Source: Haloplanus aerogenes
Lineage (GTDB): Archaea > Halobacteriota > Halobacteria > Halobacteriales > Haloferacaceae
Direction of reading: 5' to 3'
Length of the DNA: 64,000 nt
Assembly (NCBI RefSeq): GCF_003856835.1
Contig: NZ_CP034145.1
Location: forward strand, 1,984,001-2,048,000
Part shown: piece after piece, positions 34,535-59,653 of the stretch
Layout of the letters: the number at the start of each line of letters is the position of its first letter
Numbering within the stretch: position 1 is the first letter of the stretch
Program-made: the position numbers and the translations under genes
Notes under the pieces: model-generated
Database searches by the model: none
The model's input: only the letters and a program-made list of their open reading frames with translations
Told to the model about the DNA's origin: nothing

Positions 34535-35029
34535 TTATCCCTCCCGTAATTCGGCCAGCGCGCGGTCGACGGCATCGTCGACGGCTTCGCCGTCTGCCCG
34601 AGGGAACTCCGTTCCCTCGCTGTCGACGCCCACACCACGGCGGCGGGCGTAGAGGACGGCAGCGGCTTCGATGGTGATCCCTAGCTCCTGCTGGCGTTCG
34701 TTGATGGCAGCGACGGCCTCCTGTTTCTCCACGCCGGCGTCAGTCAACGCCGAGAGGATGCGCTCGAACGTGGACTGCTCGCGGAGGACGGACTCGTCGG
34801 GGACGAAGCCGTCGGGGACGGCGACGGTGGCGGGGTCGAACTCGGCGACGAGGTCGTCGTCCTCGCGGGAGAGCAGGCCCCGGCCGGCGGCCACGTCGAC
34901 GAGGCGTTTGGCCTGATCGGGCGTGAACCAGTCACGGTCGAGCGAGAGGGCGACGACGAACTCCCCCTCGCCGAGTCGGGAGCGGCCCCGTTCGCGGAAG
35001 GGCGCCGCCACGGCCACCTCGAGACTCAT
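34535..35029 (-). CDS. DUF2240-family protein carrying an in-frame hairpin insertion
   Basis: A 164-aa protein. The start MSLEVAVAAPFRERGRSRLG and FVVALSLDRDWFTPDQAKRLVDVAAGRGLL fit the archaeal DUF2240 family, with a winged-helix-like part and a helix bundle. Near the C-terminus the stretch SEGTEFPRADGEA is encoded by a double-hairpin element that also occurs in the unrelated DUF849 gene. It replaces or extends a normally shorter tail. The ATG at 35029 is used because similarity begins there. Confidence 0.8.
   Translation of the reverse strand: MSLEVAVAAPFRERGRSRLGEGEFVVALSLDRDWFTPDQAKRLVDVAAGRGLLSREDDDLVAEFDPATVAVPDGFVPDESVLREQSTFERILSALTDAGVEKQEAVAAINERQQELGITIEAAAVLYARRRGVGVDSEGTEFPRADGEAVDDAVDRALAELREG
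34575..34626 (-). repeat. Double-hairpin coding element, copy 1
   Basis: Read on the minus strand: TCGACAGC, hairpin GAGGGAAC-GGA-GTTCCCTC (34600-34618), linker GGGCAG, hairpin GACGGC-GAA-GCCGTC (34580-34594), then GACGA. It lies wholly inside the DUF2240 gene and is read as DSEGTEFPRADGEAVDD. The flanks, linker and stem start are identical to those of the element at 55441-55495; the stem cores differ but stay self-complementary. Confidence 0.8.
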
Positions 35030-37821: not shown

Positions 37822-39774
37822 ATGAATCCACCGACTGACGACGAGACAGACGAGGATACCCACCGTGATGGATCAACGGCGAGCAGTCGCGCGAAATTCC
37901 GCTACTGGGGGAGTGCCCTCGTTCTGCTGACGCTGATCGGCGTTACCACGTTCGGTGCGAGCCCGGTCGTCGGTGCGGGCGCGACGAACGATACGCTGTA
38001 CGGCGGCGACGTGGAGCCGACGATAGTGTTCGCCACGAACACCGACCCCGTCGCTAGATGTACGGTCTCGGAGACGAGCGTCCAGGTTGGCGAATCGGTG
38101 ACGATCGACGCCTCGGACTCGGAGAACGCCGACGACTTCCAGTACGACAAGTACGGGAACGAAGCATTCGGCGAGTACACCACACAAAGTTCGAGAGTGG
38201 TCGAGTACTCCGAAGCAGGTACCTACGATCCGCAGGTGAAGGTCTGGTCGTACAACGGTGGCGAAACCAGCGACGTCGCAGCCTGTGGTTCCATCACCGT
38301 GAACGAAGCGACGCCAACACCTACCCCGACGCCAACAGCCACTCCCACCCCGGCACCTAGTGCAGTCGCCAAGTGTACGGTCTCGGAGACGAGTGTGCAG
38401 GTTGGGGAGTCGGTGACGATCGACGCCTCGGACTCGGAGAACGTCGACGACTACCAGTATGACAAGTACGGCGACAGCTCGTTCGGGGAGTTCACTAGCC
38501 AGAGTTCGCGGTCGGTCTCGTACTCCGAACAGGGAACCTACGAGCCGCGAGTGAAGGTCTGGTCGTACAGCGGTGGGGAAGATAGTGATGTCGCAACCTG
38601 TGGTACCATCACCGTGAACGAAGCGACGCCGACGCCAACTTCCACGCCTAGTGCAGTCGCCAAGTGTACGGTCTCGGAGACGAGCGTCCGGGTTGGCGAA
38701 TCGGTGACGATCGACGCCTCGGACTCGGAGAACGTCGACGACTACCAGTACGACAGGTACGGTGGCGGCTCGTTCGGGGAGTTCACTAGCCAGAGTTCGC
38801 GGTCGATCTCGTACTCCGAACCGGGAACCTACGAGCCGCGGGTGAAAGTCTGGTCGTACAGCGGCGGGGAAGACAGTGACGTCGCCGCCTGTGGCACCAT
38901 CACCGTGACCGAAGCGACGCCGACGCCAACTTCAACACCTAGTGCAGTCGCCAAGTGTACGGTCTCGGAGACGAGCGTTCAGGTTGGCGAGTCGGTGACG
39001 GTCGACGCATCGGGGTCGGAGAACGCCGACGACTACCAGTACGACAGATATGGCGACGGTTCGTTCGGTGACTTCACGACCCAACGTTCGAGAGTGATCG
39101 CGTACTCCGAACCGGGGACCTACGAGCCGCGAGTGAGAGTCTGGTCGTACAGCGGCGGCGAGGACAGCGACGTCGCGGCCTGTGGCACCATCAGCGTGAC
39201 CGAAGCGACGCCAACCTCCTCGCCGACGTCAACGGCCACCTCCACGTCAACAGCTACCCCAACGTCAACTGCCACCTCCACCCCGACAGATTCGGAGGCA
39301 TCGACACCATCGACCGGGACCCAGACACCGGTGTCGACGGCAGCGACGCCGACATCGGATACGACGGCAACGGCCACGGATGATGGGGCGTGGTTCCAAT
39401 ACAGTCCGAGCGACCCAAGCGCGAACGACTCGGTCCGGCTCGTCGCACAACCGGTGGTAGAGCAAGAGGACGTCGAGGCGCACAGCTGGGACATCGACGG
39501 TGACGGGACCGTCGACCAACAGGGACGAATCCTCGAACTGCCCGCGAAGACGAGCGGCGAGACGACCGTCACACTCACGATCGAGAGAACCAACGGAAGC
39601 ACGGCGACTGTCACGCGAGACGTGCCAGTCACGCTGGACCTCGATGGCGAAACGGCGACGCCCGAACAGCCAGCGACCGGCGCCGGTGGCGGCCCCCCAA
39701 TCACGTGGCTTGTCGGCCTCTTGCTCGTCATTCTCGTCGCAGCGGTGGTCGCCTGGTCACGGATGGATCGCTGA
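37822..39774 (+). CDS. Cell-surface protein with four PKD-like repeats
   Basis: A 650-aa protein anchored at both ends: a helix at residues about 30-55 (signal or anchor) and TWLVGLLLVILVAAVVAW at the C-terminus. Between them are four copies of an about 85-aa domain, each with CTVSETSV at the start and AACG or ATCG near the end. The two cysteines could form a disulfide. The domains are joined by Thr/Pro-rich linkers, likely O-glycosylated, and followed by an Ig-like module (DGDGTVDQQGRILELPA). It looks like a PKD-type adhesin or sheath protein. Function is unknown. Confidence 0.8.
   Translation: MNPPTDDETDEDTHRDGSTASSRAKFRYWGSALVLLTLIGVTTFGASPVVGAGATNDTLYGGDVEPTIVFATNTDPVARCTVSETSVQVGESVTIDASDSENADDFQYDKYGNEAFGEYTTQSSRVVEYSEAGTYDPQVKVWSYNGGETSDVAACGSITVNEATPTPTPTPTATPTPAPSAVAKCTVSETSVQVGESVTIDASDSENVDDYQYDKYGDSSFGEFTSQSSRSVSYSEQGTYEPRVKVWSYSGGEDSDVATCGTITVNEATPTPTSTPSAVAKCTVSETSVRVGESVTIDASDSENVDDYQYDRYGGGSFGEFTSQSSRSISYSEPGTYEPRVKVWSYSGGEDSDVAACGTITVTEATPTPTSTPSAVAKCTVSETSVQVGESVTVDASGSENADDYQYDRYGDGSFGDFTTQRSRVIAYSEPGTYEPRVRVWSYSGGEDSDVAACGTISVTEATPTSSPTSTATSTSTATPTSTATSTPTDSEASTPSTGTQTPVSTAATPTSDTTATATDDGAWFQYSPSDPSANDSVRLVAQPVVEQEDVEAHSWDIDGDGTVDQQGRILELPAKTSGETTVTLTIERTNGSTATVTRDVPVTLDLDGETATPEQPATGAGGGPPITWLVGLLLVILVAAVVAWSRMDR
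38053..39205 (+). repeat. Four tandem PKD-like coding repeats
   Basis: The conserved cysteine codons lie at 38059, 38374, 38665 and 38956, so spacings are 315, 291 and 291 bases. Units 2-4 share long identical DNA stretches, including silent positions, for example AAGTGTACGGTCTCGGAG. This indicates recent duplication or ongoing gene conversion. The copy number probably varies. Confidence 0.85.
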
Positions 39775-54762: not shown

Positions 54763-54945
54763 ATGCCCTGTCCGTATCTCGACTACCGACGCGAAGACGC
54801 GGACCACGCGTTCGACACCGAACGCGCGTACTGCACCGCCGTCGACGAGTTCGTCCAGCCCATGCGCGCGGACATCTGTAACGACCGCTACGACCTCGAC
54901 CACGAGACGGATTGCGAGTTCTACACGGAGGCCGAATCGGAATGA
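54763..54945 (+). CDS. Cysteine-rich 60-aa haloarchaeal protein
   Basis: A 60-aa protein with four cysteines: MPCPYLDYRRED, RAYCTAVDEF, ADICNDRYDL and TDCEFY. The pattern suggests a small metal-binding protein and is conserved in haloarchaea as far as I can recall. The next gene starts within its stop (ATGA overlap), so both are on one mRNA. A TTAACTTTC stretch after moaA (54735-54743) may be a promoter. No function is known. Confidence 0.75.
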   Translation: MPCPYLDYRREDADHAFDTERAYCTAVDEFVQPMRADICNDRYDLDHETDCEFYTEAESE

Positions 54946-55826
54946 CCTACGCCGACTACCGGGACGGCAAACCGGTGATCCTGACCGCGGCGCTGACGGG
55001 CGGCGTCCACGGCAAGGAGGCCAACCCGAATCTACCGGAGACGCCGGCAGAAATCGGGGAGGCCGCCGCAGCGGCCGAGCGCGCGGGCGCGAGTATCGTC
55101 CACCTCCACGCTCGGCGCGACAACGGCGAACGCGCCTTCGCCACCGAGCGGTTTCAGGAAGTCACCGACGCCGTCCGCGCGCGTACGGACGACGTGATCG
55201 TTCAGCACTCGACGGGCGGGACGGGCGCGCCGAACGACCTGCGGGCGGAACCGTTGCGCACCGACCCTGCGCCCGAGATGGCCTCCCTCGATATGGGACC
55301 GCTCAACCGCTACCAGCACCTGACGAGCGAGAACACCCGGGGGCTCGTCGCGGCCTTGCACGCCGAGATGCAGGAGCGCGGCATCAAACCGGAACTGGAG
55401 GTGTTCAACGGCGGGCACCTCAACGAGTCGCTGGCCATCCTCGACAGCGAGGGATCGCGATCCCTCGGGCAGCCGGCGCGTAGCGCCGGCGACGAACTCG
55501 ACGACCCACCGTATCTGAACCTCGTGTTCGGCGGCGGGACGACGACGATTCCGCACCCGCGGAACCTGCTGAATCTGGTGGAGAACCTGCCAGCGGGCGT
55601 CGAGTTCAACGTCCTCGCCTTCGGCCCCCACCAGTTGCCGCTGACGACGATGGGTATCTTGCTCGGCGGCCACGTCCGCGTGGGCCTGGAGGACAACCTC
55701 TACTACCGGAAGGGGGAGTTGGCCGAGAGCAACGCGCAGTTGGTGGAGCGGACGGCAGGGATCGCGGAGCAGTTGGGGCGGCCGGTGGCGACGCCGGCGG
55801 AGGCGCGGGAGATTCTGGGGTTGTGA
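54942..55826 (+). CDS. DUF849/BKACE-family enzyme with an in-frame hairpin insertion
   Basis: A 294-aa TIM-barrel enzyme of the beta-keto acid cleavage group. HLHARRDNGERAF carries two zinc-ligand histidines and TGGTGAPNDLRAEPL and LEVFNGGHLNESL the acetyl-CoA side. LVFGGGTTTIPHP is typical of the family. Between LAILDSE and DDPPYL it carries an extra GSRSLGQPARSAG segment encoded by the double-hairpin element (55441-55495). Substrate unknown. Confidence 0.85.
   Translation: MTYADYRDGKPVILTAALTGGVHGKEANPNLPETPAEIGEAAAAAERAGASIVHLHARRDNGERAFATERFQEVTDAVRARTDDVIVQHSTGGTGAPNDLRAEPLRTDPAPEMASLDMGPLNRYQHLTSENTRGLVAALHAEMQERGIKPELEVFNGGHLNESLAILDSEGSRSLGQPARSAGDELDDPPYLNLVFGGGTTTIPHPRNLLNLVENLPAGVEFNVLAFGPHQLPLTTMGILLGGHVRVGLEDNLYYRKGELAESNAQLVERTAGIAEQLGRPVATPAEAREILGL
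55441..55495 (+). repeat. Double-hairpin coding element, copy 2
   Basis: TCGACAGC, then the 18-base palindrome GAGGGATCG-CGATCCCTC (55449-55466), GGGCAG overlap, hairpin GCCGGCGC-GTA-GCGCCGGC (55472-55490), then GACGA. It is in frame in the DUF849 gene. The copy in DUF2240 (34575-34626, minus strand) shares both flanks and the TCCCTCGGGCAG middle. Confidence 0.85.
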
Positions 55827-59261: not shown

Positions 59262-59653
59262 CGAACACGAGCGGCAAGAAGAAGACGGCCGTCGCCCGCG
59301 CCACGGTGCGTGACGGCGAGGGTCGCGTGCGAATCAACTCCCGACCTGTCGAACTGGTCGATCCGGAGCTGTCCCGCCTGAAGATGCTGGAGCCGTTCCG
59401 CATCGCCGGCGACGACCTCCGCGAGACGGTCGACATCGACGTGACCGTCTCCGGCGGCGGCTTCGCCGGGCAGGCGGACGCCGTCCGGACGGCCATCGCT
59501 CGCGGGCTGGTGCAGCACCACAACGATGCCGAACTCCGCGACGCGTTCATGGAGTTCGACCGGTCGCTGCTGGTCAACGACGTCCGGCAGTCCGAACCCA
59601 AGAAGTGGGGCGGTCCCGGTGCGCGGGCCCGCTACCAGAAGTCCTACCGCTGA
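59255..59653 (+). CDS. rps9: 30S ribosomal protein S9
   Basis: A 132-aa protein. [21 protein letters not shown] and the C-terminal [17 protein letters not shown] that reaches the P site are conserved. The ATG lies within the end of rpl13 (7-base overlap). Confidence 0.97.

Follow-up and report, generated by a model that had tools for sequence, protein, structure and literature searches.

The window (the whole 64,000-nucleotide stretch of Haloplanus aerogenes DNA that was analysed) carries two copies of a short double-hairpin element, each inside a protein-coding gene. Copy 1 (55441–55495, forward strand) reads TCGACAGC-GAGGGATCGCGATCCCTC-GGGCAG-CCGGCGC-GTA-GCGCCGG-CGACGA and copy 2 (34626–34575, reverse strand) reads TCGACAGC-GAGGGAACGGAGTTCCCTC-GGGCAG-ACGGC-GAA-GCCGT-CGACGA. 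Both are exactly as described in an earlier sequence-only reading, which had also named the two host families; these were confirmed by profile matches. Folding of the DNA of either strand gave two hairpins and nothing else for each copy (z −2.8 to −3.8). By comparison with empty sites, the inserted units were delimited to 48 nt (55446–55493) and 45 nt (34621–34577), the outer TC and GA belonging to the site. The features are as follows.

54942–55826, forward strand: host gene, BKACE/DUF849 beta-keto acid cleavage enzyme (PF05853, 285 bits, E 7e-85; open reading frame)
55443–55445, forward strand: GAC (Asp codon) target triplet, 5′ of the element and repeated as its final three bases (from the sequence)
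55446–55493, forward strand: inserted element, 48 nt, AGC...GAC, encoding SEGSRSLGQPARSAGD (absent from 79/79 comparable orthologues)
55449–55466, forward strand: hairpin 1, GAGGGATCG/CGATCCCTC (sequence and fold)
55467–55472, forward strand: linker GGGCAG (present in every pattern-defined copy)
55473–55490, forward strand: hairpin 2, stem approximately CCGGCGC/GCGCCGG, loop GTA, outer limits approximate (sequence and fold)
34535–35029, reverse strand: host gene, DUF2240, with the element in the C-terminal tail (PF09999, 175 bits, E 7e-52; open reading frame)
34622–34624, reverse strand: GAC target triplet, 5′ of the element (the empty site in a congener, L202, reads GTCGAC^GACGCT)
34577–34621, reverse strand: inserted element, 45 nt, AGC...GAC, encoding SEGTEFPRADGEAVD (absent from 11 congeneric orthologues and others)

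These two copies were the only strong matches when the window was searched with a covariance model of the unit (46.4 bits, E 8.5e-9 for the element at 55446–55493; 42.6 bits, E 6.3e-8 for that at 34577–34621). A weak match at 59457–59490 (21.9 bits, E 0.003) may be a degraded unit or due to chance. The window also holds, at 38026–39213, a 291-nt (97-codon) unit repeated four times in tandem; the copies are 78–90% alike to the reference copy and read as a PKD-like repeat protein. In the AlphaFold2 model of the DUF849 host, pLDDT falls below 50 at residues 172–186 only, which are the insert, lying between a helix and the next barrel strand; this position we take to be on the side of the TIM barrel away from the active site.

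Empty sites and host genes

The 79 comparable haloarchaeal DUF849 orthologues read ...ILD-ELDDPPY... or similar, with no residues at the position of SEGSRSLGQPARSAGD, and the DUF2240 tail reads like ...GVDVDDAADRAL..., without the 15 residues, in 11 of 11 congeneric orthologues and in others. The segment is an insertion that these orthologues lack; its absence was a point that the sequence-only reading had proposed to check. Orthologues with an equally long but non-palindromic peptide were not found, and further copies exist in the genome; these were the two points on which that reading had said it could fail.

Further empty sites in the genus were located by using a joint query with flanks from 13 genes. 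At six loci (L246, L239, L161, L166, L265 and L251) relatives have clean 15-codon gaps and intact host sequence; the gene at L265 is photolyase-like by reading, without a profile search. At L160 and L263 the insertion is accompanied by small local changes relative to the empty sites in the genus. The gaps are less clean at L269 (Mre11 by motifs) and L270 (RecJ/DHH-like by motifs), where the site is a variable loop. DnaK of another genome has 16 inserted residues. The hosts include ribosomal protein uL2, DnaK, Mre11 and RecJ, the last two named from motifs. Judged from these alignments, insertion was precise and without loss of host sequence in many unrelated genes.

In uL2 (L139, L020, L146, L231 and L232) the unit occupies the same position in five genera, all belonging to one family, and Haloarcula uL2 (PDB 3g4s) lacks it, with a 15-residue gap. 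Most other sampled members of the family are without the unit; among the copies the stems differ and some have decayed. The shared site may reflect descent, transfer or repeated insertion. It is also what would be expected of an ancestral segment that was lost from other orthologues. For the window copies this account is contradicted by the 79 DUF849 orthologues and by every DUF2240 orthologue compared, the 11 congeners included, all of which lack the segment, and it would require exact loss of the same cassette from each unrelated gene; we regard it as scarcely credible.

Unit, copy number and distribution

The unit has the architecture AGC-hairpin-GGGCAG-hairpin-CGAC and a length of 45 or 48 nt (15–16 codons); its typical peptide is an acidic hydrophilic linker, S-E-x-x-x-(P/S)-S-G-S-R-x-x-x-(G/D)-D. 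The pattern GAGGGA-N{0,12}-TCCCTCGGGCAG gave six exact copies in this genome and matches in 13 of 195 genomes of the order, the reversed control giving 0 in both searches. The wider pattern GCGAGG..CCTCGGGCAG..CGAC, in which the stem cores are free, matched in 89 of 392 genomes versus 3 control matches, about half of its distinct matches being true two-hairpin units and the remainder chance; a linker-only pattern was similarly noisy, with about half of its matches due to chance. A chance palindrome was ruled out as the origin of the repeat by these reversed-pattern controls (0–3 matches). By using the covariance model, which was built from one unit format and applied to 150 candidates per genome with rough E-values, at least 44 copies were found in this genome and at least 7–52 per genome among the genus's 12 genomes. 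Related copies were found across haloarchaea. Outside the order, 2 of 124 sampled genomes of the phylum matched the pattern, neither with stems, and none of 96 IMG/VR viral stretches that matched half of the pattern forms both hairpins.

Carriers in named species include, by ordinary annotation, an aconitase on a plasmid of Halobacterium sp. DL1, a family 2 glycoside hydrolase of Halocatena salina and merA of Salinigranum rubrum. Single-hairpin units also exist, for example AGC...GAC encoding SRTQSGD, and the unit at L362. Some copies in other genera are intergenic; the element can thus exist without coding capacity.

A relative that appears to be intergenic, GGCAGC-hairpin-GGGCAG-hairpin-GCGACTGCCCCTT(C/T)GA.TCCC with the outer stem GGCAG/CTGCC, was seen at L176–L183 (genomes G388 and G340) and in G033, with up to seven matched copies in one genome. 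Other apparently intergenic copies (L156 and L184–L186) are enclosed by an outer stem of greater length, such as GCGAGAC/GTCTCGC, which gives a cloverleaf. At L011, L018, L175 and L191 copies are found inside a longer hairpin, CCCCGGCGTGAAC...GCCGGGG, which is putatively similar to an IS605-type end.

Target triplet and reading frame

GAC or GAT stands directly 5′ of the unit in 26 of 31 non-kinase coding copies, against a 7.9% share of Asp among the codons of four genes in the window. The DnaK site (GATATC^GAG) and several others have no GAC at the left, and GAC is therefore a strong preference and not a rule. Since the units themselves end in GAC, duplication of a GAC target and a requirement for GAC are indistinguishable.

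Among copies with clear codon-phase G+C in their flanks, 58 of 59 lie in the sense orientation and in the AGC-codon frame, one of six possibilities; the 59 include orthologues and tandem copies, so not all are independent. This bears out the proposal of the sequence-only reading that the element is tolerated within proteins in a fixed codon phase. By inspection, a typical unit has no stop codon in any of its six readings, and the single frame is for that reason most likely due to the peptide, whose acidic and hydrophilic character would suit halophilic proteins. Three findings go beyond what that reading had claimed, namely the GAC target, the restriction to one frame and one strand, and the connection with the histidine-kinase N-box described below.

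Stem covariation and sensor-kinase copies

Compensatory change in the stems, which had been suspected from the two window copies, was found as complementary double changes, also at synonymous codon positions. In an alignment of one unit format 99.6% of cells were paired, with 37 double changes; the figure is biased because the alignment holds copies of one format picked for good stems, and the argument is therefore carried by two less biased tests, namely selection by stem 2 and the synonymous positions of kinase copies. The pair counts made no use of a MAFFT alignment of mixed-length copies, in which stems are misplaced.

With stem 2 as the sole criterion of choice, 44 of 53 units had a paired inner stem 1, with cores as diverse as GAC/GTC, AGC/GCT, TGG/CCA, CGC/GCG, CGT/ACG and AAC/GTT.

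The second test made use of the many copies in sensor kinases, which read RN[SVEHGSTGSRTESDD]AVEHGG and are repeated in 45-nt tandem. Their hairpin 1 (GTGGAGC-ATG-GCTCCAC and variants) encodes the conserved N-box VEHGST. The set was collected with a pattern that fixed the peptide and left synonymous positions open; it matched in 48 of 195 genomes. Third codon positions were paired in 91 of 106 copies for Val3–Ser3 (shuffle mean 54.8, maximum 70 in 5000) and likewise in 91 of 106 for Glu3–Gly3 (mean 52.8, maximum 68 in 5000). Shuffles within genomes reached the observed pairing in 0 of 5000 cases; off-register control pairs showed no association, the controls lying at or under chance. Synonymous covariation in the hairpin register, also within genomes, argues against both base composition and protein selection as causes.

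The same result bears on the idea of a selected 15-residue protein module that was spread by recombination, with palindromy as a by-product of codon usage. The peptide is indeed alike in all copies, and in kinases the repeat contains the N-box. The idea is nevertheless contradicted by synonymous third positions that covary pairwise in the hairpin register only, and by the DUF849 copy, whose hairpin 2 keeps a perfect stem although its reading phase differs (LGQPARSAGD); such a module is very improbable.

An element acting in the transcript, on mRNA stability or translation pausing, would agree with the sense transcription of nearly all copies in the genus and with the GNA loop that stem 2 often has on the sense strand. 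G.U pairs, allowed in RNA, should then be tolerated, yet the unpaired third-position cells in kinase copies comprise 10 G.T and 19 A.C, with no wobble excess in these small numbers. The hosts are moreover functionally unrelated, and intergenic copies occur in other genera, which makes this role improbable. From the lack of a G.U excess, the hairpins are probably maintained at the level of DNA rather than mRNA.

Mode of spread

The copies almost certainly constitute an inserted, dispersed family of coding palindromes. On balance we favour the fuller interpretation that they are haloarchaeal non-autonomous protein-coding palindromic insertion elements that would spread in the following way. The element would travel as a single-stranded hairpin copy, by template switching at the replication fork, primed by the GAC common to the 3′ end of the unit and the target. 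Insertions in the other five of the six reading options would give basic or hydrophobic peptides and be purged by selection, and template switching from arm to arm would keep the arms of each hairpin complementary. Arrays with a 45-nt period were seen, as would arise if the terminal GAC of a resident unit served as the landing site for the next.

The main rival for the route is a REP-like element mobilised in trans, with a RAYT- or IS200/IS605-type Y1 (HUH) transposase that recognises DNA hairpins and cuts beside GAC. Several traits would suit such an enzyme: the sequence at the foot of the hairpins is fixed, the ends are precise, one 5′ triplet is preferred as target, there is no clear target duplication past GAC and the units are modular, with one or two hairpins. 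The genome also has three Y1_Tnp genes. The element flanks none of these three loci, however; two of the genes adjoin TnpB, like ordinary IS605-type pairs, the third matches the profile in part only, and the stem foot bears no GTAG/CGTC-type tag. An ordinary IS200/IS605-type TnpA–TnpB pair (L196, G000:C1:1980277), which has its own, differing end hairpins and is not flanked by the element, lies some 3.4 kb upstream of the window. No enzyme was linked to the element and no transposition event was seen. Mobilisation by a Y1-type enzyme in trans appears doubtful; template switching, which also accounts for arm-to-arm correction, as was proposed for the coding palindromes of nematomorphs (PMC6649704), is favoured as a possible route, if one still short of probable. 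More speculatively, the cassette might need no transposase to copy itself into genes, relying on hairpin-primed template switching at GAC, and might derive from the histidine-kinase N-box or have invaded and replaced it. It would combine two codes, one for an acidic loop that fits halophilic proteins and one for a self-correcting palindrome; taken together, these propositions are unlikely.

Palindromic repeats inserted in proteins have hitherto been treated as largely a peculiarity of Rickettsia and as a possible source of new protein sequence. In the archaeal case copies number in the tens per genome, the empty sites are clean, insertion has a target triplet and essential proteins are among the hosts (uL2, DnaK, Mre11 and RecJ). 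It makes the movement of protein-coding selfish DNA, and its absorption by proteins, testable in genetically tractable haloarchaea, and the synonymous covariation is a clean natural test of palindrome maintenance at the DNA level within genes.

Comparison with known systems

No description of the family in haloarchaea was found in the open literature searched. Of the known systems, Rickettsia palindromic elements and intragenic REPs come nearest. REP/BIME sequences are short hairpins that occur singly or as double units and are in part intragenic, and their CGTC class has no dedicated transposase (PMC3733652; the text contains no word beginning with "halo"). The haloarchaeal element shares the short single and double hairpin units and the intragenic cases. 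It differs in being overwhelmingly intragenic in the genus, in units that begin with AGC and end with CGAC at the stem foot, without GTAG or CGTC, and in that no RAYT-like gene is flanked by it, the three Y1_Tnp loci being free of the element.

PARCEL is a protein-coding repeat with dyad symmetry that has spread in genomes, mostly in membrane or surface proteins, and none was present in the archaeal genomes available at the time of its description (PMC2996958). Coding capacity and dyad symmetry are shared; by description, the haloarchaeal element is set apart by another sequence, peptide, length and set of hosts.

Within haloarchaea, the SMR and PATE elements of Haloquadratum walsbyi are transposase-free, multicopy and palindromic, cause no target duplication and, for SMR, are mobilised by means that are unknown (PMC3119063). 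SMR are 80–110 bp long (SMR-A about 110 bp), have inverted terminal repeats and use IS605/PATE palindromes as insertion sites; PATE are akin to the ends of IS605, and neither was described as coding (PMC3119063). The present element resembles them in being haloarchaeal, multicopy and palindromic, and differs from SMR by its 45–48 nt units with two hairpins and no terminal inverted repeat.

The coding palindromes of nematomorph mitochondria are inverted repeats of up to 284 bp for which template switching was proposed (PMC6649704). These are likewise coding inverted repeats with arms that evolve in concert; they are, however, long, lie within mitochondrial genes and do not form a dispersed family of one sequence, as the haloarchaeal element does.

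The Rickettsia palindromic elements (RPE), which the sequence-only reading had aptly named as a parallel in concept, are bacterial, about 150 bp long and reported to lose repeat identity over time (PMC10969869, PMC6649704). As with RPE, palindromic DNA is dispersed in frame in many unrelated genes, encodes a similar peptide, is tolerated by its hosts and is absent from orthologues. Unlike RPE, the haloarchaeal units measure 45 or 48 nt instead of about 150 bp, have two hairpins, an archaeal host and a target behind an Asp codon, and keep their stems complementary despite sequence change. The haloarchaeal family is akin to RPE in its working and is not RPE by size, taxon, target and retained palindromy.
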